This document shows, piece after piece, positions 4,965 through 54,206 of a DNA stretch of 64,000 nt. Source of the DNA: Citrus sinensis (taxonomy: Eukaryota > Streptophyta > Magnoliopsida > Sapindales > Rutaceae); contig NC_068563.1 of NCBI RefSeq assembly GCF_022201045.2, forward strand, positions 4,464,001-4,528,000, given 5' to 3'. The first letter of the stretch is position 1. Each line of letters begins with the position of its first letter. Made by a program: the position numbers and the translations under genes. The notes under the pieces are model-generated. The model was not told where the DNA came from, made no database searches, and was given only the letters and a program-made list of their open reading frames with translations.

Positions 4965-5179
4965 GATTGGTGTGAGTGGTTCGGCACTCTTACTCTTTAA
5001 AAGAGATCAGGGGTTCAAGCCTTGCTCTCGTATGGAGTCAACACTTTAGCCAGCATTTTACCCCTTATGAACTGATCCGATGCGAGCAGAAATTAATTTG
5101 AGTTGTGGTACAGACTTAAATGTGCCTCTCACAGTTGGGGTCTACTCAGAACCACCACGTGGTTCAGACAAAAAAATAA
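4965..5179 (+). mobile_element. tRNA-derived SINE with target-site duplication
   Basis: A pol III A-box-like TGGTGTGAGTGG (4968-4979) is followed 32 bp later by a consensus B box GGTTCAAGCC (5012-5021), the internal promoter of a tRNA-derived SINE. The body runs about 215 bp to an A-rich tail (5170-5179). Flanking it is a perfect 16 bp duplication TAATAATCATCTCTAA (4941-4956 and 5180-5195), which continues imperfectly for about 8 bp more. Long variable duplications of this sort are made by LINE-driven target-primed reverse transcription. An open frame at 5080-5295 runs across the tail and is not a gene. Confidence 0.85.
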
Positions 5180-8858: not shown

Positions 8859-9701
8859 TTATTGCTTAATTTTGTTCAGAAAGTCTTCCACTATTGCCAC
8901 TCCTGGCTTCAAAACGACCTCCTCCCACGCATCTTCAGCATCCTCAGCATCTTTCATGCGTCCCTCAAGGACGTAGGTCGCATCAATCCGATGGATTTTC
9001 CACCCAAGCTCATTCCTCAACCGTTTGATCTTCTGCACTTGCTTGTCCACCAACTTACATGTGTTGTCCTTTATTTCTTGAATGGCCTTCTTGAGTAGTA
9101 GATCCTTATTATTATTAGTAGTCTCATTTTTCACGTTACTTTCAAGTTTTAAATATTCATGCAGCTCCGGAGCCCCGATAGACCGTCGGATGCCCCGGTT
9201 GTAATCGGCGTTAGGGTCGAACATGTCCCTGACCTCATCGACGAGGCCAGTTTCGACCATTTTATCGACCCGAATGCCGACGTATTTGTATAAAACAAGC
9301 GGATCAACATCCATCCAAATGAAGCAACAGTCATAATTAGCCCTAAAGTTAATTATGGAATCTTCAACAAGTGCTTCAATATAAGTATTCGAGCCACCAA
9401 CAATGATGGGCAGATGGCCATTTTCTATAATTTTGTCGATGGCCCTCAGGGCATGTTCACAAAATTCTTCCACCGGATAGTCCGCTTCTGGGTCTACAAA
9501 CCCTAACAAGTGGTGGGGAACGCCTTGGCGCTCAGACTCAGTGACCTTGTTGGTGGCAATGTCCAGACCTTTGTACACTTGAATCTTGTCCGAGTTAATT
9601 GCTTCGCCCGAAAAATGAATCGCAAGGTCGATTGACAGTTTGGTCTTGCCGGTGGCTGTTGCTCCCATTACGAACACAACTTTCTTCTTGTTGAAATTCA
9701 T
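8859..9701 (-). CDS. IPT: Adenylate isopentenyltransferase (cytokinin synthase)
   Basis: A single-exon gene of 280 residues. The enzyme transfers the isopentenyl group of DMAPP to ATP/ADP, the first committed step of cytokinin synthesis. The N-terminal P-loop GATATGKT (about residues 14-21) is followed by NSDKIQVYKGLDI, GVPHHLLG, the IIVGGSNTYIEAL signature, MVETGLVDEVR and GIRRSIGAPE, all conserved in plant IPTs of the IPT3/IPT5/IPT1 type, and the usual C-terminal AWEEVVLKPGVAIVEDFL. The open frame extends 10 codons further upstream, but only to TTG; the first ATG is at 9701, directly before NFNKKKVVFVMG. The protein thus lacks the 30-60 residue N-terminal extension of plastid IPTs, so cytosolic location, or an unseen upstream start, must be considered. 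A degraded copy lies at 6925-6996. Duplicated as-1-like motifs sit about 1.9 kb upstream. Confidence 0.93.
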   Translation of the reverse strand: MNFNKKKVVFVMGATATGKTKLSIDLAIHFSGEAINSDKIQVYKGLDIATNKVTESERQGVPHHLLGFVDPEADYPVEEFCEHALRAIDKIIENGHLPIIVGGSNTYIEALVEDSIINFRANYDCCFIWMDVDPLVLYKYVGIRVDKMVETGLVDEVRDMFDPNADYNRGIRRSIGAPELHEYLKLESNVKNETTNNNKDLLLKKAIQEIKDNTCKLVDKQVQKIKRLRNELGWKIHRIDATYVLEGRMKDAEDAEDAWEEVVLKPGVAIVEDFLNKIKQ

Positions 9702-12122
9702 GGTGATCACTCGAGTGTACACTGCCACCAAAAGAACAAGAAAATTACATAATTAAAAATTAGACGTGGCATTCTGTTTTTGGAATGTAATTACCAGGGT
9801 GGTTTGTTTATAAAGAGCATTATTATGACAAGCATAGATCATGGGCTTCCTCAAAGAAAAATGCAAAAAGAAAGAAAACACTCGCATGCAGAAGCAACAG
9901 TGATAGAAATTAAATGCATGCAAAAATTATATAGAAAATATAAAGTGCAGCATTTTTTTCAAAATCGAAGTAAAAAGTAAAAGTTTTATAATTAAAAAAA
10001 TAAGAAAAAGAACATTAGTTCTTGGTGGCTAACCTAGATTTTTGCTGATAAAGTTTATATTAGCTATTGTTATTGGTGGCCGATAAATGGTATAAAGCTT
10101 TTCAATTTATAGTACTCACTACTGATATACATGATAACAATCGTAGTAATTTTTCATTTTTTGGGAATAAGTTCATGCAAAGAAAGTAATAGCCAGCAAA
10201 TCCAATTTTTTGAGACAATTTTTGGCAGCAAATCTAAGGATTGTATTTCACAAATCATGAGTACTTGTGCACATTATTAGCATAATGAAAAAAAATTCAT
10301 TTACTTGAGTTTTTTTTGGTACCTTGGATCTGAATTTTTCTACAAGAGGTAATATTTTAATAACATCCTTTTCTATAGTAACATTCTATAAAAAATTGTA
10401 ACTATCATTTTTTTTTTGATAAGATAACTATCATTTTTTTAACTAAAATTGACAAGGTGAAAAGGAAAAAAAATAAAAAGTTGTTCTTCTCATAAGTTAC
10501 ATCATCCGTAATTTGCATCACTAAGATCAATTTTTGTATATGACTTAATTGTTAATTGTCAAATAACTAAGGAGTCATGAGAGACTAATTTTAAGTAAAT
10601 TATAAGTTACAAATACTGTAACTTACCCTCTGTCACAATTAAAAGAGAGAAAAGAAGCAAAAATGAAAAATATGGAAATATAAAATTAACAAACATAATT
10701 TCGTATATATTACGATAATTTTTTTGGCAAATTTTGTGCTTCAAGGGGAAATCAATTTAATAATGCCATTTAAAAAAAAAAAGCGGGGACAATTTGATAA
10801 TGGCTATATATATGGCAGTTTCAAGGGTTGATTTAGGAACTAATATTTAAATTTTCTTGGCCACATGTTTTAGATTAATTTCGTGGTGCAAACTTTAAAA
10901 ATTATTGTTTCCAACCTCATGCATTATATGCCCCATATGCCATAATCATTGTTAAAAAAGTTCCTGAAAAAGCATATTGTGCACATGATTTTTTTTCATT
11001 TTTACCATTAACACCTATGTCTCGCTAGTAATTATTAGTATTATTTCAATGCTTAACCTTCTTCTTCTTTCTATTTCAAACAAATATATGAATTACTAGG
11101 GTTGATCGTATTGTCTAGCCTTCTTCTTATTATTATTTCAAAAATATAGATACATAATCACTTTATAAACGATTTAAAGGCGAAAAATCATTTTCTTGGG
11201 TTGAAAAAGCAAAACCAAACATGTGAAGTTCTCTATATAAGATCAAATATTTGCTATGTTTGAAAAAAAAAGGAAAAAAGAACAAGATAATATCATAATA
11301 ACATGAAACTACCGGTATAAATTAACTAACATGATGAGATATATATGATCAGTAACTTACCTATATTCATCGAGGAGAACTGTAATGAAATACATTCTTG
11401 CAATCATGGGATTATAATGTTTTCTACTATACTATTTTATATTTTATGTTTCATTTTCACTAATCATACTTAAGATTTCACATTATATATAGACGTTTTT
11501 CAGTTATTTAAAAATACCAAACTACCCCGTACTAAAGAGATATGCCGTCATTTCGTACGTCATCACGCTCAAAATAATTTTATGCCGTCATTTCGTATGT
11601 CATCATTATAAAAAAGTAATTAACTATCCATACACATATGCTATAATATCTTCTTTTAACCAAATAATGATAAAAAAATTAAATTAATCAATCTCTCTGT
11701 GTTTGTAAAAGTTAAGATAACAAGTATTTTATATTACATAAATTGAAAATATTATATTTACTATTTCAAGATACGATGTTGATATAGTCAACAACAGTTG
11801 TAACTCTTTTATGAATTAAGTTGGCAGCAAATATGACATGAAATGATTAGTTGAAAAGTAGCATTACTTACTGAAAATATTATATATTCATAGGCCATAT
11901 AATACTTATTATCTAACCAATTTTTTTACGCACATAGTACAATTGTTTAATGATACATAATTTGAAGATTTATAACACCCACCTTTTTAAGATAATATCA
12001 ACACCATGTCTTGAAGTGGAAAATCATTTTATGAAAATAGTAATAATAATGATAAAGAATTGGACTGTCTGACAACTTTTTTTTAATAAAAAAATAGTGT
12101 TTCCAAATACCGATAAGGAAAA
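9702..12122. other. Upstream region of IPT, no further gene
   Basis: AT-rich intergenic DNA. The only structured element I can support is the as-1-like pair at 11541-11605. A small frame at 9780-9980 is AT-biased and without motifs. Confidence 0.5.
11541..11605 (-). promoter_or_regulatory. Duplicated as-1/ocs-like element
   Basis: On the - strand the motif reads TGACGTACGAAATGACGGC, two TGACG cores spaced as in the classical as-1 element (TGACG-N7-TGACG). A second copy exactly 40 bp away reads TGACATACGAAATGACGGC, with one core changed. As + strand units they occupy 11541-11565 and 11581-11605. TGA-class bZIP proteins bind such pairs and mediate salicylate, auxin and xenobiotic responses. 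The nearest gene downstream in the matching direction is IPT, about 1.84 kb away; the link is inference. Confidence 0.45.
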
Positions 12123-12262: not shown

Positions 12263-15036
12263 GCACTCGACGGATAATTCATTTAACTTTTTCTCTTCTC
12301 TTCTTTCTTTAGTTTAACCACAAAATTAAAAAAAAAGTGTCAAAAGTAAATATTGTTGAGTGAAAACAAAAGTGGAAAAAAAAATCTAATTAGATGATAA
12401 AATGTGATTAAGCCACAGCAAGAAAATAGAGAGTGCTAATAAAGGATATCAGATGCAATAATCATTTTTCATAAATTAAATTAAGGTTAATTAGAGTTGC
12501 AATAAATCCCAAATATATTAGGAAATATATAGTAAATAAACAAAAGCGTATGGGCTAAAGTGAAAGAAGGACGAACAGAATTATTATAGAAACCGAGTGG
12601 AGGTATTGGCATCCCGTTAAATTACTCTTAAAAAACCTTCTTTTATGTTGACAATTATAAACTATAGAAAATTTATAAATATCTACAGGAACATCCTTCA
12701 GCCATATTCAAGGAGTTCGGAGATGCTAGCTATATATTATGAGGAGCATTCCGCAGCGTTTACAGATTTTGGGACATCAAATAGCACTTCAAATTTTTTG
12801 CTTCTTTATTTCTCTCCGGGATTTATAAGGTTTTCCTTTATATCTCTCCAAAGCTTCTCATTCTCTCCAACACCAAATTAATAATATTACGAGCATTTGA
12901 CTCTACAACCAGTGGGACTAGTCCTGATTCCACAATAATTTGAATGCTAAAATTCATTGCATAACACTACCAAATATATATATAAGCGGGGAATGTTTGT
13001 GGCCAAAATTCAAATTTCATGTAGCAATTTTGTAGGAGTTCTTAGGGTGCGTTTACGATTAATGTGTGGCAGTTGGGCTACTAAAGTCCAACTGTTAAAG
13101 TATTTGGTTCTACCTTTTATTCCATATCAGAAACTTAATTTACAAAACACTATCAGCTCTTACGCTGCAGCTATGGTTTTACTTTATAACGGCTGTAACT
13201 TAAAAGTTACAGCACCTCATGACGAAATACATCTTTATATTAACAATAGACCAGGGAATTAGGGACAATACTTACTGTTGTTTTAAACTTACCCAGCAAA
13301 TAATACATTAATTAGTGGTGAAACCTATTTCATTAAAATATGTTTATGAATATTTAAAATTTGAAAATTGTAAAGAAATACTCATTCTTTCTCTCTCGCT
13401 ACGTCTCACACTGCCCTAACGTCGATCTTTCATCCTCAGTTTCGCTCTAGATCTCTAGCGAAAACAACTTTCTTATCCAAAAAAAAAAACTTGTTTTAAG
13501 ATTTGTGAGTAATAAAAATGACACTAATACTGGGGCTTGAAACACCATAGTGTGTGTTGAAGATTATTTTTGGAATTAAAAGGGGAGTCAATACATATTT
13601 ATATTATTATGATGTATTTTAATGGGATTTTAAAGAAGAAAAAGGGTTTTAAAGAGGACTTAGAAGGGGTGCCAATAGTTTCAAAATTAGAAACCTGAGT
13701 CTCATTATGAATCCAGGCCGGCCCTTTATCCCCTAGGGTTTTGACCCAGAAACAAGTCTAGGCCCGACTCTTATCTATTTAAACGCCATTCATGGAGCAC
13801 AACAGATACCATCCATTTCAGTCGCAACGCTTAAGAACCCTAGCTCCGGCACTTTCTTCGATTCATTGGGTGGTTTTGGTTTTGCTCCTTTTTTTTTTTT
13901 TTTTTTTTTTTTTCAGTTATGTGTTGTAAAAATGAGGAACCAGGCCTTCATTAATCCCAAATAAGCTGATATTAAGAAAAAGTGCTTATTTGATTCATGG
14001 GAGGCCAATATCAATCAATACTGGAAGTTTCGCTGGTAACGCCTTTTCCTTTTCTTTTTTACATGAAGGCGTTCATTAGTAACTCTGCCATACACTCCCC
14101 CTTTTTTCAATCTTCCCCTTCTGCTGTCTTTCCCTTTTCATGGGTCTTTTTTGCTCTTTGTTCTATTTATCTTTTTTCCATATTTTTTTTGGGCATTTTT
14201 GCCAAAGCCTAGTAATTTCAATTATTATTATTATTATTATTTTCATTCACCTGTGCAAAGTTAGGGGCCTGACTTGACTGAGAGTCTTCTTAAGTTGAAT
14301 TGGAATCCCCCCACAAACCCCAACAATGGGCTTAATTTCTCTCTTAATATAACATGATGAGAACTTGAGACGTTCACTTAATTAATGCCAGATTTTCAAG
14401 CTAATGCTCAATAGGTTCAAGATTTTATTTGACACGATCCGAAAGCATAATTAATTACAATAAATTGCTATTATTGACTCTCCAATAAGTCGATTAAATA
14501 AATTAACATTTTTTTAATAATTACAATTTACCGATATAAATTTATTGAAAATTTAGATAACATACATTTATGAAACAATCCAAAAGCTTACAGAAATCAA
14601 ACAAAAAAAATCTACTTCCACTGTCAACGTTAGAAAAAACATTCCACAGATATCTATTATCAAAATATTGTTATTCTTCAAAGAGAATGGAAAAGTTTTT
14701 TAAAAAAAAAGGTTTTTAGAAGGTATTAACAATGTAATTTGAAATATTTATTCTTAAGATTCACATGGGGCGGGTATTGTGACGGATAAAAGAGTTCGCA
14801 ATTTACCCTTTTTCCAGTCTAAATGAAGTCGGATTGGAATTTGAAGTATTATGTGACATTAAAAGTGTATATTAAATTCAAAGGGGCAAGCAATAAGACC
14901 AGTGTGCCTGAAAAATTATAATTGGACAACTTGAAGACAAGTTGTTAACATGATAAATATTCTTCTCATGGCATAATAAAAAATATCTAATCCTGCTCCG
15001 AACACTATGGTTTCTCTCAGCATCGAAAGTAAAAAT
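12263..15036. other. Intergenic DNA between IPT and OST48
   Basis: No protein-coding gene is recognisable. The open frames at 12645-12881, 12957-13262 and 13997-14212 have no family motifs. An orphan promoter-like block lies at 13715-13870, followed by a T tract of about 27 bases (13890-13913). The last 200 bp before 15037 probably carry the OST48 3' untranslated region. Confidence 0.5.
13715..13870 (+). promoter_or_regulatory. Orphan housekeeping-type promoter block
   Basis: The block contains GGCCGGCCC, TAGGGTTTT and AGGCCCGA motifs (site II/telo-box style), a TATTTAAA box (13777-13784) and, about 60 bp later, a leader-like AAGAACCCTAGCTCCGG. A possible leader intron follows, GTGGTTTTGG... 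to a T tract ending TTTCAG (about 13916). This combination is characteristic of ribosomal-protein and translation-factor genes, yet no coding exon can be read downstream. It may be a dead promoter, a gene fragment, or the start of a non-coding transcript. Confidence 0.3.
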
Positions 15037-19490: not shown

Positions 19491-21055
19491 TAGGGATGGC
19501 AAAATAACTCGTATCCGGACGAACTCGGATAATTCGGGTCGGGTTGAACTCGTGTCGGAGAGAAAAAAATTTGGATTCGGAATGAGTTTTAATAACCCGG
19601 ATGAATCTGGGTCCGGGTCTAGGTTTGGGGTAACCCGTGTATCCGGAACCCGGACCCGGATTCATTTTTTATATTATTTTTAATTATATTTATTAGTAAA
19701 TATAAATATAAATATAAAAAAAAACCTAATTCTATTTCACAAGTCAAACACACAAATCGCGAATTACACAAACAAGACAAACCTTAGCTGTGCTGCCGCT
19801 GCCGCCTTCCGCCTTCCGCTGCCCCGCAACAACTCTCGACTGGGTTCGCCATCGTCGCAAGGTCGGGTTCGCCGTTGTCGCAAGGTTGGGTTCAAGAAGC
19901 TTGTGAAAATTACATTTCATTTTACTGTTGATTTTGATTTCCTTGTGTGAATTTTCTGGGTTGGGTTTTCTTCTGAGAATGTTGGGGATCATTCCTCTAG
20001 CTGAGCGTCTTGGTTTTGTAACTGAGCATGTTTCCTTTGCATTTTATATGTATAGTTCTCCATATGAAATTTCATTTATATGAATTTTCAGACTAGATTA
20101 TGAAATTGGAATTTACCAAAATTTGGTTATGCTTCCATTCGATTGTATCAATATTGAAAGGATAAATGATTTCATTAGTACCTAATTTGCAGCTTGTGCT
20201 TAATTTAATGTAGGCAGCTGGCTTTCTTTACAGGACCTACAGGTTCTTTTATTGTCGATAATGAAGTGTCAGTTTGACATCATTTCCATAAGTTTTTTAT
20301 TTCTTCCACCCACCAAGCTCCTCTGTTCTTCAAGCTTCCAAATTCATGACAAGCTTTTATGTTTATTTCTCTCAAAAAAAAAATTAGGTGAAAAATATGT
20401 TTGAGCATCAATTCGTTTACCGGGATTACTCAATGATAAAATATCCTCTTAATGCCATTTGTAGTTGGAGGTCTACTAAATACTACTTTTAGAAATTTAA
20501 CAGAATTGATAAAAAACTTACATTTATTTTATTCTATTTTTAAGGTTCATTTGTTAATTAATTATTTTTATGAATAGATCAATTAATGCCCCTACGAGTG
20601 TTGTTGTAAGAATATTATTGTAAAAATAAATAAAAATAAGAGAATGACTATTATATATTCAACGACAGAGTGCAGTTCCTCAATTCATTTGTTTCATGTG
20701 ATTTGTGCTATGTGATTTGTGTTGTGTTATACTGCTGTGAACACCATTGATTTGTGTTGTGTACTTGTGTTATACTGCTGTGATTTTTGTTTCTGTTAAT
20801 ATTTCCTTTAGTTACATTAGTTGTGTTTTGGTTCTATCACTAATAATGAAAGTGAAATTTGAAATTTTATTATTGATCCGGGTTCAAAACCCGGAATTCG
20901 GGAACCCGAATTTTTCCAGGTTGAACCCAGACCTGGACCCGGATGGAAAAAACTGGGTTTTAATCCGGATCCGGGAGAAAGAAAATGACATCTGGGTCCG
21001 AAACCGGAAAGACTAAATCCGGACGAGGACCCGGACTCGAATTTTGCCATCCCTA
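19491..21055. mobile_element. Non-autonomous hAT-type element (1.57 kb) next to the OST48 promoter
   Basis: Terminal inverted repeats TAGGGATGGCAAAAT are perfect at both ends, flanked by an 8 bp duplication with one mismatch (ATTGGGAT at 19483-19490, ATTGAGAT at 21056-21063). Both subterminal regions carry repeated CCGGAC/GGGTCCGG motifs in mirror arrangement (19510-19665 and 20880-21035). The interior has a GC-rich patch (19790-19900) and AT-rich filler, with no transposase. The left end lies 170 bp from the OST48 start codon, so the normal core promoter must be very compact or overlap the element. Confidence 0.85.
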
Positions 21056-21109: not shown

Positions 21110-21480
21110 ATGGAAAATGATGTTATTATAAAACTTTTCACAAAATGGTGTGTTTTGTGTAAAGTATAAAAGCCACTATTTGTTGTGTAGGGACACCACA
21201 CACACTTTTGAGACAAACTTGTGTGTAGCAATCCTCATTTTTCTCTCATGAGACAGCAAGTGAGGATTCTCTTTCCCACCTCTTTTTTTCCTCACAAGAT
21301 AGCAATTGTCTTAGGTCTCTCCCATCTCCACGCCACTAATAGTTTCAACTACGTTCTCCCTCACCACAAAGCAACATGGAGAGCTCTTTGTCACCTATCT
21401 CAAGCGTCTTGTTTCACCTTTCTATCCCTATGACCCTCGATTGTGTAAGAGAAATCTTACTACTTCACTATCATCCCGCG
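21110..21480 (+). repeat. Left terminal inverted repeat of the MULE
   Basis: Pairs with 31538-31885. It contains a TATA box, TATAAAAG (21165-21172), pointing into the element, so it probably served as the transposase promoter. The open frame at 21221-21433 is repeat sequence, not a gene. Confidence 0.75.
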
Positions 21481-23383
21481 ATTTTAGCTGGGTTGCTCTC
21501 TCTCCCCCATAACAATCAACTTGTTAAGGTTAGTTGCTTCAATTCATTGCCCTAATTGAAATCTTTAATTTATCTAGGACATTGTGTTGTTTTACTTATG
21601 GATGGTGACTGTCTTGTAATTAAGTATTGTAAATTAGAATCAAATTATACAACCCCTTGATGCCATTTTGGAATAATGTTTATTTCAAACTTTCGTGTTG
21701 TGATTTAGTTGCTTGACGAAGCACCTAGATACTGTAGTTTGCTCCCTCAAATTATTCTGTTTTGTTGAATAAATTATATTGCCCATTATTTGAATAAAAT
21801 AAAAAAAAATTATAGCTCTTAAACATTGAGCTTATGTTATAATTTACGTGTCCCCTCTTTTATAGCACTTTTTTCACAATTTATGTTGTTTCTAATTAGT
21901 TAATATGGAATATATTCATTTCGTAGGAATAAAGAATATGAAAAAAAAACCATCAAAGTTGAAGAGTTAGAGAAAATTGAGGAGGAAAATTTAGATGATG
22001 ATGAGCCAATGATTGAGATATTATTTGATAACGAGACTGAAATGTTTAGTTATTACAGAGTGTATGGTAAAAAAATTTTAAAAAAAAGGGTTTCCAGCTA
22101 TGCAGAGAAGTAATAATAGGGGTAGTGATGGGAGAATAAGACATGTGAGTTATGCTTGTGGGTGAAACGGTGCAACTAGAAGCAAATCTACTAATCTACT
22201 CAAGACCCAACCTAATGGAAAGATATGCTGCAATTCTAAATTGAAAGGAGAGTTCAAAAAAGACAGAAAGTGGATGATTCAAGTTTTAAATCTTGAACAC
22301 AATAATACATTATTGACTCCAACCTAGTCTAAGTTTTTTTGGTACAATCGTAGCCTCAGTTCAGAAGCAAAAAATAAGTTTGATGTAAATGACAGAGCAT
22401 GAATTAGATTGTCCCAAAATTATCAATCACTTATTATTGAGACTAGTGGCCAAGGAAATCTGACATCTATAGAAAGAGATTATAGAAATTATATCAAGAA
22501 AGAAAGACAACTACGACTTAGAGATGGAAAAGCTGTTGCTCTTCAAATTTATGAACATAAAATCAGAAAAAAATAAGTTTTTCTTTAGTATGCAAATGGA
22601 TGATGAGGGTCGATTAAAAGGTGTATTTTGGGTTGAGCCAAAGAGTAAGGAAACTTACAAAGAGTTTGAATATGCTGTCACATTTGATGCCACATATCTT
22701 ACAAATAAGTATGACATGCTATTCACTCCATTTGTGGGAGTAAATCATCGTGATCATTTTATTTTGTTTCAATATGGATTGATTTCACACGAGGACATTG
22801 AGACATTCACATAGTTATTTCAAATGTGGCTATCATGCATGTTTAATTATGCTTCTATTAGAATTATTGCAGACTAAAATAAGGTGATGAAAATTGCAAT
22901 TGAGGATGGTTTTCCTAATACTCAACATCAATGATGTTTGTGGCATATATTTAAGAAGATTCTAGATAAATTAAAAGGCTATAAATAATATCGTGACATT
23001 AGTGATGTGTAACATTGTGCTATTTATGATTCACAAAGCCTTACAAAGTTCGAGAAAACTTGGCATCGCATGACTTTAGAATATGATTTGGGTGATAATA
23101 AATGGTTACAAGGCTCATACAACGATAGACATCATTGGGTACCATGTTATCTTAAGAATAATTTTTGGGCAGGAATGTCAACCACTTAACGCAGTGAAAG
23201 TATGAATGCATACATATTTTATGGTTACATTAACTCAAAAACCATCTTGAAGCAATTTGTAGAGTAATATGACGATGCATTAAAGAGTAAAGTTAAAAAA
23301 AAGTTGAAAAAGATGTCAAATGTCTTTCTCAACAAATGCCATGAGTGACATCTTATGAGATGAAAAAGTAAGTTCGAGATGTG

Positions 23384-24766
23384 TGTTGAGTGTTAGAAAA
23401 TGCATATTTATAAAGGAGAAAACCGTCATTTTACATTTCAAGTCTTACTAACAACCCTTACTTTTATCTATTTAACCTTCTTGTGATTTAATTACATGTG
23501 TTTTATTTTAATTAAGTATTTTATGTATTTTAGGGGCATTATAGTCATTTCACAATAAATGAGAAATCAGACGGCAAAACGGACATCACTTTTGAACTCA
23601 GGACGGTCAAAAACCTTAGGAGGAGCATAAAAGGAAAAATGGCACTATTCACGTGTACGGTACTGTATACGTTACTGTTCACGACACTGTTCACATAGAC
23701 GGATGATGACGTGGCATTGACTGATGAGGTGTCACAATCCTGTTGGACTAAAATTCTTATGTACTGTTGATGGTGACGAGGCAGCATATCAGTGGACGAA
23801 AAATCTCGCGTACGGTGCATGCATCACACAGGATTATTTTCAACCAAACCGCGTTACTGTTCATCCGGGTCAAACCGCGTTACTGTTCAAAGTCGGGTCA
23901 AACCGTGTTACTGTTCATCCGCGTGGTCAAACCGTGGACTGTTGACTGATGACGTGGCGCAATCTTGAGCGTCCAAACTGTTTTTAATCCGATGGCCATG
24001 ATTTATTCCATGTATCTATAAAAAGGGGGCCTCTCCCCCCTAATTTGATAGCTCTGAATCCATTTTTGGACTCCATTTTCCGTAATTCCCTCTCCATCTT
24101 GTATTTTCTTCGTATTTTAATAAATTCCTATTTTGCCCCTAGTTCAATTATGAGTGGCTAATTTTCTTTCAAGCTTGGGTTGAAGGTGAAGTCTCAACAT
24201 GTGTCATGGGCTTAATTTGGTAAATTTATTTTCTCTTCCCCTCTAGTTTTTGTGGATGTTTTGACTTCTTGTCGACAAATAATACTAATCTTGTCTAGTA
24301 CCGCCTTGGTTTCACCGGCCCTCTAGTACAAGGTTATTATTATTTGGCACGATAAGCCCTTAGCACCATATTGATTAGAGCGTGGTTCATGAGGTGTGGA
24401 TTCCCCCCTCATGATTTAATTGGCATTAATACGGATTATTTAGCCCATGATGCATGTTGATATGGATCCAGATACCCAAGTACGTCATTTCAATATAATT
24501 CTCGTCAATTTATTCTCGCCATTTCAATACCAATTTTAGAATTTATTCTCGCCATTTCAATTCCAATTTTAGAATTTATTCTCGCCATTTTAATTTAATT
24601 ATTAGCATATTCCAAATCATTTCCACCATAAATCCAACTACCCATTTACAAAATTAATTCTAATATATAATTAAAATCCACCTCCTCGTGGGATCGACAC
24701 TTGTCACCATTAGTCTATACTACAATAGATTCGTGCGCTTGCGAGTACATTAAAATTTGCACAACA
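23384..24766 (+). mobile_element. Solo LTR (1383 bp) of an LTR retrotransposon
   Basis: Starts TGTTGAG and ends GCACAACA, with a perfect 5 bp target duplication ATGTG on either side (23379-23383 and 24767-24771). There is no internal retrotransposon sequence, so it is a solo LTR left by recombination between two LTRs. It holds a TATA box (CTATAAAAAGGG, about 24017-24028) and, upstream of it (23640-23940), short repeats around GTTACTGTTCA like U3 enhancer repeats. Removing it plus one ATGTG restores a continuous reading frame of the MULE transposase (VRD-VYTISKFEEFQ). The orientation is set by the TATA box and terminal dinucleotides. Confidence 0.9.
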
Positions 24767-26329
24767 ATGTGTACACTATTTCAAAGTTCGAAGAATTTCA
24801 AAAAACGTTGACTGAAAAGATGTATTGCGAATTTATCAATTCTATAGGATGTGAATATATAGTTAAAGAAGATGTCAAAGTTGAAGAGGGTAAAAAACGA
24901 ACTTTTTTTAAAGTCTATTTTGAAAAAGATAATGGTAAAATTAGTTGTAGTTGTTCAAGATTCGAGTTTAGGGAAATTCTTTGCAGACATGCCATTACAA
25001 GCATGATACATAATGACATGGAAGTACCTCAAGAAAAGTACATACTAAGAAAATGGAGAAAAGATGTGTGGAGATGCCATAATAGGGTGAAAACGAGTCA
25101 TGGGCTGCGGAGCACAGATGAACAAAAGCGATATGAGAAAATGTGTGTTATTTTTGGAGATTACAAACATGGCTGCAACAAATGTTGAGACTTGTAAACT
25201 TGTTTTAAATTGGATTTAGAAAGTACGGAAAGATCTACCAAAGACGGTTCAATGAGGAGGTAACATCGTAGGAATTTCAGGTCAAGGAAGTTGTAGTAAT
25301 AGCGTGAGAATTTTAATGAATGCAATTGAAAGCAGGGGCAGAGACAACATATTGATTAACTGGGCTTATTCAATAGTAATATAAAAAAATTTCAAAAAGT
25401 AATAAATATATAAATTTGAAAGATTTATCATACTTCAATATATGCTTACAATTGCCCTTTACGAGTTTTCATACATTGATAACGTTGTATTACAACTTCA
25501 TTATCAATATTATTAAATAAATCTTTTCTATATAAACAACCAAACTATCATTCATCAATTGCTCTCTCATTCAGCTTCATAACTGATTCTTAAAAATGTT
25601 CATGGCTGAAAATGCTCTCTCTACACTAACAGTGGCAACAGGTAAAGTCAATGCTGATATTATTAGCAAGTGAATCAATGGATATACCTTATGTCTCTTA
25701 GTCTTGACCATCAACTTTGCAAGATCACTAATATCTTCTAATTGTGAAAACTCACCACTAGTTCGTATATCCAAAATATATGTATCAAGTTGAATTCTAA
25801 GTGCCATGATATCAATTGCAGAGAACTCATTTGGATACAACTGAGCTAGCCGTAATAACTTCTGCTTGTTGAAAGCAGAAAATGAATCATCTGGAGATAA
25901 ACATGCTAAGCAAAGAAGCAACTCAATATTTGTCTTATTAAAATGAGAATTAAGCTCTTGAAGTTGCATATCTAAGACTATATAATACAATTCAACACGA
26001 TAATGATGTAAATTTATGATCTCTTGAGCTTTACGTAGTGATCGCCCTCTATCCATAAACATATCATCCATATTAGGCACATTAATATCATGCTTCACAC
26101 AAAAAAAAGTACGTTCATCAATCAAAGAATTTCATACACTTTGTCTCATTATTTGTAGTTGTAGTGTACATAATCTAACCAAGTTCATAGCATTCACAAT
26201 ATCTTGATTTTTCCTCTGTAATGCTTGTGATAACTCATCTATAGCCCCTAAAATATTCCTCATCCAGATACTCTAAAAGACATAATTAGTACTTGGGCAA
26301 TTGAGACCACTAATATTATATAAGAGAGA

Positions 26330-26665
26330 CGCGTGATGCATTTCTTTTTATTTTGGTTGATGAATCTTGTGATATATCAACAAAAGAGCAAATGGTAGTT
26401 GTCTTACGATATGTAAACACTAATGGGTAAGTGGTTGAACGTTTTATAGGCATTAAATAAGTTGTTAGTACTACTGCTCAATCACTTGAGGAAGCTATTG
26501 ATAGACTTTTTCTAGACATGGTTTGAGTATGTCTAAGTTGCGAGGGCAATGTTATGATGGAGCAAGTAATATGCAAGGAGAATTTAATGGCCTTAAAACC
26601 ATAATTTTGAGACAGAATGAATATGCTTATTACATTCATTGTTTTGCTCATCAACTTTAGTTAGC
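26330..26665 (+). pseudogene. Inverted internal segment of the hAT transposase (catalytic part)
   Basis: Reading on the + strand gives ILVDESCDISTKEQMVVVL, RYVNTNG, TTAQSLEEAIDRLF, RGQCYDGASNMQGEFNGLK and YYIHCFAHQ, the conserved DUF4371 block that should lie on the - strand between the TTF domain and the C-terminus. Two frameshift or stop sites are present. The segment sits at the correct place but in reverse orientation, so a roughly 340 bp inversion with loss of neighbouring sequence is the simplest account. Confidence 0.8.
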
Positions 26666-26929
26666 TTGTAAACCCATGTTTAGTAAATGATTCACCACCT
26701 ATTTGTTCTCCAATTCTTGGCTTGCAAAGATAACAACAAAGACAAAATGTAGCATCATTTGCAATGCTATACTTTAACCAATTTCCATATTTATCAAACC
26801 AAGCTGGATTAAATCTCTGAGACTGTTTTCCAAAATGCCTAAGAGGAAAATTGTAAGTTTTTGGTTAACAAAGGCCATTTTACAAATATTGTCTTCGAAC
26901 TTTATCATAGATATTAACATTATAGTAAG

Positions 26930-28161
26930 TAGGGGTGGGTAAAACCGAACCGGAACCGAAAAAATTTCAGTTCAGGTCGGTTTTTTTTAGTTTCGGTTTG
27001 GTTGTTTTAACAAAAAATCTGAATTTATAAATACTGAACCGAGTGGTTCGGTTCAGTTCGATTCTCGAATAAAAAATTATAAAATCTAAACCGAACCTAA
27101 TTTAAGGCATTTTCGTAATTTCGCTAGAACATATATATACACAAGTTAAACATTTGCGGTTTGCACCACTCTCTCTCTCTCATTTTCAGCTGCAGCACAA
27201 CCACTTACGGAAAAATTGAAAAAATACAATAACATACTCATATCGAGGCAAAGCTAATAAAACTAAATAATATTAATAATTTAAACAAACATGAAATAAG
27301 AGCAGATCAAAGAGCCATTTAAAAAAAAAATAGATCCATTTAAAAAAAAAACTGAGCAAGTTGACTGGCTACTGTACTCCTAGTAGTGCTGGGGTGAAGA
27401 CTAAAAAAGTCATTAAATGTTGAAGATGATGGAGGGATAATAGTATGACTCAATATTTAAGATATGTTTGTATATAGGAATTCTAATATGATTTGATTTG
27501 TTTGTTAACTTTTCATAATAGTCCTTGATCGAAGGGGAACAAGATAAAATTTCATTGGAGTCCCTAATGTTTTGCTAATTTCTATTACGGCATAAATACT
27601 TATTTTATTTTATTTACATTTTGGGCCAAAACTTTTGATATTAAAAATAGTAACCATAATTTTGAAAATTCTTCGTTTTAGTCCAATATTCTTGCCTCTT
27701 TTTTTTTTTAAAAAAAATACAAATTTGTAAATTATTTTATTTTTGTTTGATTATATATTGATTATAGTAGGCCTTGTGTGTAGGATAAAAGAAAATAACA
27801 ATGTTGTAAAGGATATTATGAAGGATGATTTTGTAAATTATTTTATTTTAATGATGTAGTAGTAATTGATGAAATTGTAGATTAATTGATGAAATCGTAG
27901 ATTGTAGATGCTTTGAATATATTATATAGTTATTGAAAATGAGGAAATTATTGCACATGGTTTGAAATAGAACTGAAAACCAAACTGTTAAGATGAACTG
28001 AAAAAATTGATTGCTTAAATAAAACTGTTAAGAAAAACCAAAACCGAACTGAAACCGACCTATCAGTTTGGATTTGGATTTTATTTTCAAAAAAACCGAA
28101 CAATTTTTTTTTTATTTTTCGAACCCGAACCGATCTGAAACCGAACCGACATGCACCCTTA
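26930..28161. mobile_element. Second-level hAT-type element (1.23 kb) nested in the hAT relic
   Basis: Ends TAGGGGTGGGTA (26930) and the reverse complement TAAGGGTGCATG (28161) are imperfect inverted repeats. They are flanked by an 8 bp duplication with one mismatch (ATAGTAAG 26922-26929, ATAATAAG 28162-28169). Subterminal arrays of CCGAACC/GGTTCGG occur at both ends (26945-27100 and 28025-28150). It carries no transposase. Its position between the HPISYY and NVNIYDKVRRQYL pieces of the host transposase fits a single insertion into coding sequence. Confidence 0.83.
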
Positions 28162-29299
28162 ATAATAAGAAATTGGATGTCGTAAACCAGGATCCATAGG
28201 AAGATTCAATAAATTGACCTCCACATCATTTTCTCTCATAGTTACAACATCATCATTCTTTTGTTTTTTATCACTATCATCATTTTTCTTTGAATAACTA
28301 CTGTCTTTTTGTTTTGAAGTATCATCATTTTTTTTTTCTGAAAGTGGCGACTCCTTTCTTTTATAAAATCTTTCTATACCTATTTCAAAATATAAATAAA
28401 GATTATGAGTATATATCATTTACTTATGCTACTAGCACTTTTAGCATATTCCCATATTATATAATTATATTAATGTTGTAAATTAATTAACAAATAGTAC
28501 ACGGCAATAAAGCTAAACAAGCAAATGTTTTATTGCAATTGTCATTTTCTTAATATGATAATATATGTTCTTTTTCATGGAACCCACACTCAATCACATT
28601 ATTTTTTCAAGTATACCGACTACCAGATGATACAATAAAGGAAAAAAACAACAATATCATCAATTCAACAAATAGTCATATGTGATTTATAAACAATAAA
28701 ATAAAAGACAAATAAAGTATTAACTTGTACCTTAGTTGTATTGAATGAAGAGATGAGGGGTTGTTTGAAATTTGGAGGAATGAATGAAAACCACTTGTCC
28801 ACTGTCACTACTTTTTTGCTTTTGGAGATGCTGAAATAAAAAGATGATTTAAGGATTTGCTGGTAGTGGAATTGGAGAAGGTGAGAGTAATAAAATATTA
28901 TTAATGAGTTTGTGGGCTGTTTAAAAAGTTAATTAATATTAATATTTATAGGCTTGATTTTAGTTTGGAAAGCCCATCTCTTTTGATTTGTTTTAAAATT
29001 TTGGAGTGTGACAATTTAACTATATATTAGGGACTTGAATATAAATTATTAGGGGCTTAAGAAAAAAATATTGGAAATTTTAGACAAATCAAATTAACTA
29101 TTAAAAGATTTTTTCTAAGTCCCCACTGGTCTAAAGGTAAATCCACCCCTGATTGAAAGAGTATATGATCTAATAGCTAAATGTCGTAAAGGTCGTCCAC
29201 CTTATCAAAGAAAAAAGTCAAAAAAATTTACTAAACCTAAAAAGAATTTGGCTTGTTCCGATGTAGAGGTTAGTTTTAATATTAATTAAAATAAAGTAA

Positions 29300-31537
29300 T
29301 TTATTATATAAATGATACTTAAATGATTTTTTGTTGACTTTGCATGATGGACAAGTAAACAACCTATTATCTTCTCAAGTGACTACTGTAATACTAACCC
29401 TTGTTGTGGTAAGTTTTGAAAAATTCTTATTGATAATATATTGTTGAACTTATGTAGACGCTTCAAAACCTTGAAGGAAGTAGTTTTGATATAAATATCT
29501 ACCTACCTATATGGAATAGTGGACAATTGTAAAAGAAGTTTTCTACACTTTATATATATGTATATAAACACACACAACACACACATACATATATATTTCT
29601 TCATCTTATGTATTGTATTTTTTATCATAACAAGATATTTAATTTTTTATAATAGCAAACGCAACTCTAGTAGCATGAACATTTTCAACAACTATTCTTT
29701 CAGGAAGCTAATGAATATGGAGTTAGTACGGAGTTTTTGAAATGATTTCACAAAATAGCATTGTATTTGTGTTTTAAGAATGAAGAATGACAAAATGCAG
29801 TTGTACTTATTTTTCTTTTTTCTTTTTTTTTTGTATTCTATTACTTAGTGCTTTGAATAAAATTAATTTGTTTATAAAGTTGTTTGCTTTTACTTAATCT
29901 TTTCTAGCAATTTATATTTAACTTCACTGCATTTGTAATTAACTTTGGAAGTACCTTATTAAGGATCGCAAATAAGAGAAACTAATATGTTAAATTCACT
30001 TGACATTATAATTGCAACCAAGAGAGGTTAACACATTATGATTGCAAATAATAGAAGCTAATGCATAATTAAATATACAACTTAAATGTAATACATATTA
30101 AAATAGATGTAATTATTTGTACGTGAAGTTCGTAAGATCTTATCATTGCAGTATTTTTTCATCTGTGAATTTGGAATTTCACTCATGGTAGTAGGCATTA
30201 TGACCAAAAATATCCAACCAATTCCTTGAGCTTTTCAACTGCAGCCTTCTAGCTTCTACTAGAATCTTGCATTCATAATACATTTTAAGCAGCTGAAGGA
30301 AGAAAAAAAATAAAGAGGCCACAGTAACTCAAGCTTCTATGACCAAAGATCCATTTCACCACATAAATTTTCAGATTTTGCCAGTTATTATACAAATTAT
30401 ATAAAGAAAACAACAAATCACTCTAATCTCAAAAAATAAACACATTCACTATTGATCAATATCACTAATAAATTGATAGGTCATAATTTGATTCAAATTT
30501 ATAACACTTAAGCACAAGACCAACACCATCCATAGGTAATTTGACATACCTCTATGTAAGTAGAGATCCAAGTTTAACAAATACCAATAATTGAATACAA
30601 ATTATTCATAAGCTCATAAACTATTATTTTATTACAAACCATCAATTTTCTTTAAAAAAAATAGAGATACTCCAAGCATTGGTGCATCTGGCAACTAATT
30701 ACACATTTTATTTCTTTTTAGAGCAAATATTTTATAGATATATATAGAATTTTGATTGTATTATACATTCTTCCAAAGCTAGTTAAAAATAAATGAAATT
30801 TCTTTATAAAAAATTCAGGACCAAAATGACAACAATAGGCCATTCAAAGGTACTGTTATCTAAGTGTGTAAAGTGCTAGCTATAAAGTAATCATCATAGT
30901 ATATTATAGAAACCATACAAGTATGACGAAAAACTCATTTAACAAGCTAGTGTAGTAGCAGTAATAGGTTGTCAACAGTGACTAATAAAAAAGTGCACAA
31001 AAAAATTATATTAATTCCTACAAGACAACAAATATCTCAATTTATGTGTTTTAAACATCTTTTTTAAATAGTTACTCTGAAATTAGTTCTTCTAAATTCA
31101 ACACAGATAGTTATATGCAACTGAAGTCAGCAATTAATTTCAACTTACTAAGAAATCCAATTAACAAAAGCCAAAGATTACCATTATAATGAATTAACCA
31201 TAAAATACTCTCAAAGCTTATGCAATCCAAAATATCATGAACATCGGTTCAAGGAATCAAGCTCTTTGCATGATTCTCAGGCTATTTTACTAGTAACTAA
31301 AAATCATAAGTTGACAGTTTTGACAAACCAAATGCCTTAAAACTAGAACTAACTATAATATCCAAGGCATAAGGGGGTTGCATAATTTGATTTCAATTTA
31401 CAACACTCAAGAACAAGACCATCATCATCCATAGGCAATTCAACACAATGTCCTAAACAAGTTAAAGATATCAATTGGAATATAGAAATTGGAATTGTGA
31501 AATTCAAAACCCTTGACAACCAAATTAAATATTGGGG
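29300..31537. other. Non-coding right half of the MULE, with a diverged direct repeat
   Basis: AT-rich DNA with no recognisable protein. About 60-100 bp at 30481-30560 (CATAATTTGATTCAAATTTA..., CAAGACCAACACCATCCATA) recurs with substitutions at 31379-31450 (CATAATTTGATTTCAATTTA..., CAAGACCATCATCATCCATA), a direct repeat spaced about 900 bp. The frame at 29519-29740 is low-complexity. Confidence 0.55.
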
Positions 31538-31885
31538 GGTGGGGGAGAGTGAGGCTGCAAGATTTCTCTAACACAGCCGAGAGTTATAAGGATAGAGAGG
31601 TGGAGCAGACGCTTGAGGCAGGTGAGAGAGAGCTCTCACTGTTGCTGCATGGTGAGGGAGAACGGAGCTGAGACTGTTAGTGGCTGGAGATGGGAGAGAG
31701 AGACCTTCACTGTTGATGTCTCGTGAGGAAGAAAGGAGGCTTGTTGCACGTGAGTTATGTTGCTCCCGTCTCAAGTGTGTATGGTGTTCCCACGCAACAA
31801 ATAATGGCTTTTATACTCTGCACAAAACAATCCGTTTCATGCAAAGTTTTGTGAGAATATCAGCACCATATGTGTAGCAACTTGA
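31538..31885 (-). repeat. Right terminal inverted repeat of the MULE
   Basis: Reverse complement of 21110-21480. It also holds an inward-facing TATA box (CTTTTATA on the + strand, 31808-31815). Open frames at 31568-31774 (-) and 31680-31877 (+) are repeat sequence. Confidence 0.75.
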
Positions 31886-36956: not shown

Positions 36957-38045
36957 CTAGTTTCGGCTGTCATTGGGATGGGAAAACTTCTTGACTATAG
37001 CAGCCATGTATTTTCCCTGATGCTCAGCAAGAGCCAGCTCTGTTTCGGTTGGCTTTCTTGTGCCGTCACCGGAAAATACTCCTGCACCATATGGAGAGCC
37101 TCCTCTTAGGGAGTCCATCCCGAACATTTCGGTGCCAAAGGTGTAACCAATGGGAACATAAACCATCCCATGGTGTGCTAACTGGGTGATTGCCGTCCAC
37201 CTGCAACACAAACATAGCAGAATTATTCGGATTTAAGATATCAAACTGTCATGACTGAACTAGGGAAGTGGCCATGAAATTGGCACGGTCTTTGTTCCTC
37301 AGATCATATATGTATGATTTGCATTCTATGTTGGTGATTTATCATATTAATTTTGACAAACAAAAGTTGTTATCTAGCGTGCTAAAAATCAAAGATATCA
37401 AAAAGACAACGCTGAAACTCTTCCTAATAAATCCATGATCAAACATTAGCCAGATAATACCAGAAACATAAAAATATGAATTTTCCTGATCATAAAAATC
37501 AAATAAACAATAACCAAAGCAGTATCTCACGCCGTGGTCTCTTGTCCACCTCCCTGCGTCCCAGTACTCACAAAGAATCCGGCAGGCACGCCAGCAAGCC
37601 GTTGCTGCTCCCACAAGTGAAATGTAGAATCAAAAAAGGCCTTCATTTGTGATGCCATGGATCCAAACCTTGTCGGGAACCCAAACAACAAACCATCAGC
37701 ATGAACCAAATCATCAACAGCTATTACAGGCACCTCAATGCCCTTTTGGGGCACCTTCATCTGCTCCAAAACCTCCGCTGGCAACGTCTCCGGTACTCTA
37801 TACAAAACCCCTTCAACTCCATCAATAGAATCCACTCCCTTCTTCATTTTTCTTGCCAAAATCTCCACATGGCCATACATTGAGTAAAAGATTATGAAAA
37901 TTTTAAGTTGTCCTGTTGTGCTTGTGCTTGTAAGTTGGTTTTGGTCAAGATTAGAACTTACTCCGTCTGGGTTTGAAGGATCTTGCTCTGGCATATCAAT
38001 TGCAAACTTTTTCTTGCTTGGGAAACACCCACCTCCTTTTCCCAT
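36957..38045 (-). CDS. NAD(P)H:quinone oxidoreductase, FQR1-like (WrbA family)
   Basis: Two exons (38045-37531 and 37200-36957) give 252 residues. The flavodoxin-like fold is shown by FIIFYSMYGHVEILARKM (FMN phosphate loop, about residues 50-67), FGFPTRFGSMASQMKAFFD, and FFVSTGTQGGGQETTAWTAI with HHGMVYVPIGY across the exon junction. The family reduces quinones by two electrons with FMN and NAD(P)H, limiting semiquinone radicals. Compared with FQR1 (about 204 residues) it has an extra N-terminus of about 45 residues beginning MGKGGGCFPSKKK: Gly2 for N-myristoylation, a nearby Cys for palmitoylation and a lysine cluster. This matches the FQR1-like 2 type (At4g36750-like) and suggests plasma-membrane attachment (inference). 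The 3' ends of this gene and RCE1 face each other. Confidence 0.95.
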
Positions 38046-39190
38046 TAGATCTTAATATGATTCTGAGCTTTTCCTGTACTAGTAACAATATTGAGTCAAG
38101 ATTCTTGACTGGTGGGCACTGCTTGAAATATGTTTACTAAAGGTACAGTGATCAGAGACTGAGTGACAAGATAAACCAAGATTGTGAGTTCTGTATCAAT
38201 TTGCATATAATATATAATCAAAAAGAAAAACAAGAACAGTAGACGAAGATGGAAACTGGAGTTGTGCATGTGAACAGAACTTGAGTTGACTTTCCTTTTG
38301 AGCTGGTCGTTGGTCTGTAATGGCTGGCATGTCGTGCGTACAACATAACATTATGTTACAGCAAACTTCGCCGTCTAATTTATTGAATGGTAGGTAAAAT
38401 ACTGAACAAATACGTAACGTTTTTCTTTCGGTATAGACTTCTAGTCGCCATCTATATCAATCATCTTTATAAAATGTAATACGAGTGCAGCATAGTTTGG
38501 GACCTTTTCTACGCCACCTCATTATGATTATTATGTATAAAAATTGACTAAGAGCAAGAGACCATCAATCCCTTTCAGCCAAGGTTATGTTTGGCGCTAA
38601 AGTGCCTGGGTAGGTAGTTGATAAACATACATAAATTATTTAGCTACTGTGCTCCAAATTAAGCAGAAGCGGTGAAGCGCAGTAACTATTCGCATACCCT
38701 CAAAATTTCTTAAATATATAGATATATTTTTTTTGTCTTTGTTTCTCATTTCTTGTGAAAAATGTCTTAAGATCACCTTAATCATAGCAGCATTCTGTGG
38801 CCTAGTTGTAAGGTTTTAACAGATCATGATACAACTATTAAAATCAGGCAAACGTATGCTCACCGTATCAACAATTCAGAAAGCACCCTGTCATTCTCAC
38901 ACATATGGTACATGTCATGTAACAAATTGTGATACACTACAAGATCGTTTACAGGAAAATTTTACTGCTCGTTATACACACCCAGGCAAGCAAAAACAGA
39001 GGGTATAAGAGAGTAAAGCCCTCTGCTTTGACATTTAAAATGAAAAACTTGCAAAGATTTTGTGATGCAATAGGCTCATGATTACCAAAAGGTGGTGTCG
39101 TGGTGAGTGGTGACATTCTTCAAAAGCTCCAAATTTCAAGGCGGAGAATAGTTATGTTTTCAACTGAGTCATTTATGAGTACAAGTCTGC
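38046..39190. other. Intergenic DNA between FQR1-like and deSI-like genes
   Basis: Holds the promoter and leader of the FQR1-like gene (38046-38400) and probably the 3' untranslated region of the deSI-like gene (from 39190 downward). The frame at 38826-39008 has no motif. Confidence 0.5.
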
Positions 39191-53441: not shown

Positions 53442-54206
53442 TTGCGCGTATTCTCGTGGGCTTTTTTGGCAGCGTAAGTGCCTGAAACACTGCCTTAATT
53501 TTCAAGTAAGTGTTGGGGGGTGGGTGTCATCTGGTTAAGACTTTTAAGACATTAAAATCTGTTGTGTTAAATAGAAAAAGTTTTAGAGTTTGAACACCGT
53601 TCACATTGGTAGGAAGAAATTGAGTTACTATTAGGCTTAAATAAAAAGAAAATAAAAAGAAATTAAGTATTGGGTACGGACAACTCAATACGGGCGCAAA
53701 ATTTTGTGCCATAATTGAACAAATTGAGATCAATTTGTAATTATACTTTTGTGACTTCTAAGTAGCTATAAAACTGTCTAGAGTTAAACATGAGATCTGG
53801 AGTTTGAAGATCGTTTTTATTGAGAACAATGATCCGGATAGATTTGTGACCAAGCTGGGTCAATATGTTTGAGAATAAATATATACAGTGTTTGCTTTTT
53901 GTTTTTCATTTTTCCAAATAATCCTTTTTAGCTTTTCATATGGTGGAAGAAGCATTGTTTTACAGGGAAGTAGGAACCATTTCGACAGTTTTAGGAATAA
54001 ATAGTGCAGTTCCAAATCAAGTTACATGTAATATGCGTAGCAGGAAGAGAGTTCGGGCACTTGAGGCATGAAACGAATAAAAGCACATGTTCTGTAGCGA
54101 AATACTGAAAATGAAGAACATAAAAAGCATGTACAATTCCTGAAAGGATTCCAATTTCATTGGGTTACAGAAACAGTTTGATGAGTCTGTCTTGTCTCCC
54201 CGTGCT
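53442..54206. other. Intergenic DNA between the PPR gene and PUKI
   Basis: Promoter region of the PPR gene and presumably the 3' untranslated region of PUKI. The frame at 53527-53733 (-) has no motif. Confidence 0.5.

Follow-up and report, generated by a model that had tools for sequence, protein, structure and literature searches.

Are the repeats crowded between positions 21,112 and 31,868 of one stretch of Citrus sinensis DNA the remains of a single transposon broken by others, and if so, what kind of transposon was it? The stretch, called the window here, is 64,000 nucleotides of contig NC_068563.1, and we compared it with a genome of 299.7 Mb in 11 contigs, in which it occupies C8:4464001-4528000. 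A first-pass annotation, made from the letters of the window, had described a four-deep nest of mobile elements inside a Mutator-like element (MULE) with long terminal inverted repeats (TIRs). Our answer, to which we give a probability of roughly 85%, is that the nest is a dead copy of a two-gene MULE of the FAR1/Jittery type in the Citrus genome, broken by later insertions. The window MULE keeps both family termini, its transposase is broken by stops, by a solo long terminal repeat (LTR) and by a hAT transposon, and a second, convergent gene is reduced to its ends. A smaller hAT-type element then entered the outer hAT, and both of them contain an inverted stretch with deletions beside it (Table 1).

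The kind of element can be read from its transposase. On the pieces left in the window the MULE domain PF10551 matched at E = 1.7e-25, the FAR1 domain PF03101 at 2e-7 and the SWIM zinc finger PF04434 at 1.9e-8, and seven in-frame stops fall within the 256-amino-acid MULE part. The transposase of a relative, locus L077, is an open frame of 740 amino acids. The ratio of nonsynonymous to synonymous substitution (dN/dS) of the transposase exon is 0.09-0.13 between the distant clades compared and 0.08 to 1.30 in close pairs, a spread that is expected because copies decay and the counts are tiny. The domains, taken together with the place published for the CitMule element near Jittery (PMC4334395), suggest an affinity of the window MULE to Jittery, and such an element would have transposed by cut-and-paste, its terminal repeats being the substrate of its own FAR1-SWIM transposase.

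To belong to one element, the two ends should also occur together elsewhere. The TIRs that the annotation had paired do align, over 556 columns between 21118-21664 and 31366-31862, with 69% identity, 12% gaps and E = 2e-57. The family termini, each read inwards, are GGAAAATGATGTT on the left and CGGTGCCGATATT on the right, and they lie in the window at 21112 and 31868. In nine of the 12 short-relative loci that we inspected both termini are paired, 843-1054 bp apart, and in all nine the pair is flanked by a target-site duplication (TSD) that agrees at 8-9 of 9 positions. One pair was kept per locus, with a start of at most one mismatch to GGAAAATGATGTT, which L004, L019 and L021 do not have; starts with up to three mismatches yielded extra candidate pairs in the same loci, but with only 0-4 of 9 TSD letters in agreement, and these were dropped. 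Two of the short relatives, L024 and L020, hold a stretch like window 21538-21883 and then, within 10 bp, a stretch like 31655-31867, and so have the build of internal deletions of a window-type MULE. From the nine paired short copies and the build of L024 and L020, we conclude that the two ends are a natural pair; genomic copies that share both TIRs as a unit, on which the annotation had staked its own claim, do exist. We also considered whether the outer TIRs are two separate short elements and rejected this, as a scan of the 21112-31868 interior for termini with up to three mismatches gave only matches with two or three.

Several points nevertheless weigh against the arrival of this MULE as one unit. 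The 9-bp TSD is found in the family and not in the window copy, contrary to what the annotation had expected at the MULE ends: the flanks TTTTAAAAT and TATGTGTAG agree at 3 of 9 positions, and at a maximum of 4 of 9 within offsets of ±3, so 21112 and 31868 need not have arrived together. (By eye, the TSD is AATAAATTG, 9/9, at L077 and 7/9 at L078.) The TIRs are just 69% identical, and the polarity of the ends is reversed, with the transposase beginning at the CGGTGCC-type end in L077, L078 and CitMule_1 and at the GGAAAATG-type end in the window. Three of the nine short copies have interiors reversed relative to the window's. Finally, an 11-bp word from the left end is found again at 31962, as in 3% of resamplings; a displaced TSD at 31961 (8/9) is not claimed, since 66% of first-order resamplings of the right flank gave a match that good. 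These observations would suit a chimera, in which the outer TIRs of the 10.8-kb MULE come from two MULE copies joined by recombination or deletion. We consider this unlikely, because the ends are of two complementary kinds and correctly oriented, because the internal order of transposase, 3′ region, second gene and TIR is that of L077 and L078, and because six of the nine short copies share the window's polarity and look like internal deletions of such an element. For the last of these reasons we dropped reversed polarity as a sole proof of a chimera. MULE interiors have evidently been flipped relative to their ends, a change that recombination of the long inverted repeats with each other could plausibly have produced. 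The mismatched flanks could reflect an aberrant insertion at two sites, which has been proposed for CitMule_3 and CitMule_ARR, or one flank may have been lost afterwards. Of the five tabulated CitMule copies, two have 'dissimilar' flanks, which were attributed to insertion of the two ends at different sites (PMC4334395).

All three insertions inside the window MULE have an empty site in relatives, and their identities, boundaries and target duplications (5/5, 8/8 and 7/8) hold as first annotated. The sequences flanking 23384-24766 are contiguous in L077 and L078, overlapping by the 5-bp duplication, so the MULE's transposase frame was indeed interrupted by an LTR retrotransposon that is now a solo LTR. 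Likewise, the hit of the transposase gene by a hAT is borne out in L078, where window 25330 and 29152 meet at 4992-4997 of that locus; L077 has no room for the outer hAT, with 26 bases between the aligned parts. The hit of that hAT by a smaller hAT-type element is seen as an empty site in L061, L062 and L063, where window 26929 and 28163 come together and overlap by 7 bases. What did not stand is the depth of four, because these are four elements on three levels, with the solo LTR and the outer hAT as siblings in the MULE. An AT-rich region with many weak repeats might suggest instead that unrelated repeats came to lie together by chance or by assembly error and that the nest has no history. 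This alternative is highly improbable given the precise elements with TSDs of 5/5, 8/8, 7/8 and 7/8 (the last in the hAT-type element beside the MULE), and the three empty sites are a strong counter-argument.

The assignment of the inserted elements follows from their ends and contents. The LTR has TG...CA ends, a 5/5 TSD and a family copy with gag, namely L040, where Retrotrans_gag (2.4e-20) adjoins the LTR; by eye, its family includes at least eight same-strand pairs about 11-12 kb apart. The element would have become solo through recombination between its two LTRs. Matching 5-mers flank 3 of the 11 other LTR copies compared (L033, L035 and L036), and thus solo LTRs recur. The outer hAT has an 8/8 TSD and retains matches to PF05699 (9e-6) and DUF4371 (2.4e-14); hAT elements have 8-bp TSDs and short terminal repeats, as here, and these matches are remnants of Dimer_Tnp_hAT and DUF4371. 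For the inner element and the neighbouring one at 19491-21055, each with a 7/8 TSD, the name hAT-type comes from TSD length and terminal motif, with no transposase identified in either. The MULE exon is about 80-81% identical to its nearest relatives, the 5′ part of the outer hAT 91% and the LTR 96%; most blocks of the inner element show about 72-90%, and one block of 124 bp shows 97.6%. This suggests that the LTR was a late arrival, the identities being distances to relatives and not insertion dates. Selection may not have acted on the later insertions, which would have entered a MULE copy that was dead or silenced by then.

The annotation had also stated that the hAT was partly inverted after the smaller element entered it. 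The inversion is real, with 26267-26666 in the opposite orientation in all four close relatives that cover it and, by eye, in all 12 of the more distant copies for which both parts were listed; relative to L061, about 380 and 353 bp are lost at its sides. The order is another matter: the inverted segment neither contains nor touches the inner element, so which event came first cannot be read. We found a second inversion, at 27207-27362 in the inner element, that had not been annotated. It is opposite in six of six covering relatives (L068-L073; L074 does not cover it), and 129 bp are lost on one side relative to L068. Thus both hAT copies here carry inversions with flanking deletions, unlike the relatives compared, and both probably arose by faulty repair inside the hATs (template switching or gap repair), for example after abortive excision. 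One of these relatives, L069 (C5:8795000-8798600), contains a pair of inner-hAT-family copies that are rearranged or nested in each other, with segments of mixed orientation.

We now turn to the second gene, whose remnant at 30069-30198 on the minus strand had likewise escaped the first-pass annotation. In L077 it is a 160-amino-acid frame convergent with the transposase, encoding a 136-amino-acid protein from its first methionine. Compared with L077, the window lacks about 260 bp between 30117 and 30121, where the two sides join at a word of 4 shared bases; DNA matches to L077 and L078 lie on both sides, and the C-terminal stretch that survives is QIITSILICITFKLYI. A genome search with the L077 protein gave 113 matches from 117 candidates, which merged into 99 loci, referred to as GRF loci after the zinc-ribbon domain described below. 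Their positions were compared with those of 150 transposase matches, for which 148 of 537 candidates were scored, and then with 30 more, used from a second search in which 150 of 788 were scored; the added matches are mostly ones absent from the first set, and matches can be pieces of one element. As many as 61 of the 99 GRF loci lie within 3 kb of a transposase match of the first set, and in 61 of 61 the GRF gene is downstream and on the opposite strand, while random positions gave a mean of 0.27 and a maximum of 2 in 200 trials. The 30 added matches give one more convergent pair, which brings the linked loci to 62 of 99, all 62 of them convergent. The linkage also follows the relatedness of the transposase to the window query, as a GRF locus lies within 5 kb of 22 of the 25 matches with at least 60% identity but of only 1 of the 36 below 40%. 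By eye, the exceptions at 60% or more are the window copy, which has the remnant, C5:30074740, whose GRF locus is 10.3 kb off, and C8:2346517, for which C8:2363067 is about 16 kb off; the sole match below 40% with a GRF locus is a fragment of the C4:7745041 element, whose other piece has 73% identity.

The protein itself was examined in 21 frames (L077 and L079-L098), of which 13 were aligned, four of them trimmed at a terminal stop, and L081, L082, L085, L088, L089, L090, L091 and L097 were excluded for stops. The alignment has invariant cysteines C16, C19, C41 and C44, a leucine-rich middle and a hydrophobic C-terminus. The GRF zinc finger PF06839 was detected at E ≤ 0.1 in 13 of 13 members, with a best value of 1.5e-6; the L077 match lies under the curated cut-off (15.9 versus 25.9 bits), and the lowest E-value of that member is to DUF5984 (0.0018, below the cut-off), which matches 2 of the 13. 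The hydrophobic tail reaches a 17-residue hydropathy maximum of 2.29-2.72 in the four proteins computed, and it may be a membrane segment. A profile search of the PDB gave weak matches only, the best being MALT1 (E = 0.075), with NEIL3 at 0.83. In six chosen pairs the GRF frame has a dN/dS of 0.18-0.41, with bootstrap 95% limits of 0.09-0.83 (upper limits 0.33-0.83), and the same bases read in the two other frames give 0.79-2.62. These pairs were chosen from eight sequences and are not independent, L092 and L094 having been excluded for an offset frame. From these comparisons, purifying selection seems to act on the GRF protein, though less strongly than on the transposase.

On this evidence we lean towards a wider reading, which we hold with less assurance than our reading of the nest: the FAR1/Jittery-type MULEs of Citrus, including CitMule, which moved recently, would be two-gene transposons in which the small product of a conserved convergent GRF gene, with its leucine-rich middle and membrane-like tail, helps transposition. 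It would be a counterpart of mudrB that belongs to another class of protein, and the window element would be a relic of such a design. The second protein would have helped the MULE as mudrB is thought to help MuDR. Some results count against this. There is no listed transposase match within 12 kb of 34 of the 99 GRF loci, and the linkage is weaker for middling transposases, with a GRF locus within 5 kb of 32 of 65 matches at 50-60% identity and of 10 of 24 at 40-50%. With 148 of 537 and 150 of 788 transposase candidates scored, some of the unlinked loci are misses, and some may be host genes. The candidate explanations are MULEs that are broken or went unscored, remnants, and host genes of transposon origin. 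The GRF locus of L078 is among the 34, and the broken transposase of L078 is visible only at the DNA level. Moreover, the role proposed for the protein is read from conservation and position.

A rival reading is that the GRF gene is instead a captured host fragment, in the style of a Pack-MULE, or a dispensable passenger. MULEs do take up host genes, and the ULP domains in grapevine MULEs, found in both orientations, have been read in this way (PMC2528002); the unlinked 34 loci would also fit. In Abermu elements the second frames, called ORFRs, vary by lineage, and a rice element without one is reported to have been recently active, from which its authors think that the ORFR is maybe unimportant for transposition (PMC9168764). 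That Abermu ORFRs are possibly dispensable counts against assuming a helper role for the GRF protein. Capture or passenger status seems doubtful to us all the same, because position and orientation are the same in all 62 linked loci, beside transposase matches mostly about 44-71% identical to the query, because the frame is conserved with a dN/dS below 1 in the chosen pairs, and because the FAR1 matches of less than 40% identity are nearly free of the gene, the single case being part of a 73% element.

Convergent second genes are already known in MULEs as mudrB, mutB and ORFR (PMC9168764, PMC6446971). MuDR (mudrA and mudrB) and Mutyl (with mutB antisense) have a second gene opposite to the transposase, as in the relatives here, but their second genes are not described as GRF zinc-ribbon proteins in these two papers, so that they are set apart by description and not by sequence. 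Abermu Type II of grasses has a convergent ORFR between transposase and 3′ TIR, with Ka/Ks below 1, and some copies are nested; it differs in that its transposase was found via MURA similarity and in that the ORFRs are unrelated among distant plants and variable in place (PMC9168764), all of this from a comparison of descriptions, not sequences. Neither FAR1 nor GRF occurs in the text of PMC9168764. The Jittery group (group 36 of PMC6446971) has transposases with N-terminal FAR1 and C-terminal SWIM or CCHC, as in the window family, but is tabulated with one open reading frame (ORF), whereas the window's relatives have two.

CitMule, a Jittery-like element of Citrus clementina, is a further close comparison. 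As described in PMC4334395, it shares with the window MULE the FAR1, SWIM and MULE transposase domains, membership in a family with 9-bp TSDs, and dissimilar flanks in some copies; the window MULE belongs to a different subfamily (69% amino acid identity to the transposase at the CitMule_1 locus) and has longer TIRs and reversed end polarity. CitMule_1 was reported as 6926 bp at 6785326 on chromosome 3 (PMC4334395), and it is present in the genome that we compared at C3:6790111-6797037 (6927 bp), where both flanks are TTGTTGAAA, the published TSD. CitMule was described as one 5-exon transcript, and the terms GRF, antisense, second ORF and opposite strand are all absent from the main text of PMC4334395; within the boundaries of CitMule_1, we find the GRF gene at C3:6794833-6795240. 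The terms GRF, antisense and TIRs do not occur in the main text of PMC8599713 either. Among the titles listed in literature searches none concerned a GRF-type second gene in a MULE, the results for 'GRF zinc finger' being judged by title alone. The second gene thus seems to have been overlooked in this group, and the novelty seems to lie in its presence in FAR1-type MULEs and in the protein being a GRF zinc ribbon.

Table 1. Transposon features of the window; positions count from its first letter.
Feature	Position	Strand	Ends and evidence
Neighbouring, separate hAT-type element	19491..21055		17-bp perfect terminal repeat; TSD ATTGGGAT / ATTGAGAT, 7/8
Outer MULE, FAR1/Jittery-like, degenerate	21112..31868	+	Left end GGAAAATGATG, right end CAGCACCA; termini set by 9 short relatives
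MULE left TIR	21112..21664	+	69% to right TIR over 21118-21664
MULE transposase, 5′ part	21958..23383	+	FAR1 PF03101, MULE PF10551; stops, one frameshift; 80-81% DNA identity to L077/L078
Solo LTR, 1383 bp, TGTTGA...CAACA	23384..24766	+	TSD ATGTG, 5/5, at 23379-23383 and 24767-24771; 96.1% to L030
MULE transposase, 3′ part	24767..25330	+	SWIM zinc finger PF04434
Outer hAT, CAGGGGCAGA...CCACCCCTG	25333..29151	-	TSD ATTGAAAG, 8/8, at 25325-25332 / 29152-29159; DUF4371 and Dimer_Tnp_hAT remnants
Inverted segment of outer hAT (in transposase)	26267..26666	+	Opposite in L061, L062, L063, L064
Inner hAT-type element, TAGGGGTGGG...GCACCCTTA	26930..28161	+	TSD ATAGTAAG / ATAATAAG, 7/8
Inverted segment of inner element	27207..27362		Opposite to adjoining part in L068-L073
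Second-gene (GRF) remnant	30069..30198	-	About 27 N-terminal codons and hydrophobic C-terminus; tblastn 6e-6 and 0.005
MULE right TIR	31366..31868	-	TIR alignment; further matches across genome

Some further observations concern the MULE and its family. Between the second-gene remnant and the right TIR, window 30571-31362 is 89-91% identical to C9:9766852-9767792, which has no right-TIR match among the matches listed, and it is bracketed by a 65-bp direct repeat (30482-30546 and 31381-31445); this stretch could be yet another insertion, or a TIR base that was duplicated. At C3:6791651, C3:46306246, C8:13628531 and C8:28579731 we find transposases of identical score with open 737-amino-acid frames, one of which is that of CitMule_1, and each has a GRF locus 2,454 bp off; these copies look like a recently active family. 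Another set of identical scores, at C5:26651280, C5:34596808, C5:35281055 and C1:21233418, comes from a 398-amino-acid frame that matches residues 1-136 of the query only, with a GRF locus 909 bp off, perhaps an amplified deletion derivative that retained the second gene.

Outside the MULE, the separate hAT-type element that the annotation had placed beside it is confirmed as an element with a 7/8 TSD (Table 1). The window also holds the H/ACA snoRNA snoR83 at 13954-14097 on the plus strand (87.8 bits) and, by eye, long minus-strand frames like an isopentenyltransferase (8859-9752), a WrbA-like quinone reductase (37527-38051), a PPR protein (51411-53501) and a PfkB-type kinase (54277-54933). 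From these flanking gene-like frames, the nest sits between ordinary genes.

As a nest, the locus shows a common process cleanly, with events that can be put in order, and contributes little by itself; more than one-third of candidate coding MULEs in maize and rice have nested insertions (PMC3903597), and the window is one more well-resolved case. The second gene is the part worth following up, and it is a new annotation for the family of CitMule, which has been tied to a 2-Mb citrus deletion (PMC4334395). For transposition assays, the GRF gene is a concrete component to include or omit. The plant regulators FAR1 and FHY3 derive from FAR1-type MULE transposases. Should a partner protein be the regular companion of FAR1-type MULEs, that partner would have been lost when FAR1/FHY3 arose. 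The FAR1 matches of less than 40% identity to the window query probably include host regulators, and their near lack of a GRF locus within 5 kb, set against its presence by most matches of at least 60%, would fit such a loss of the partner, if true.

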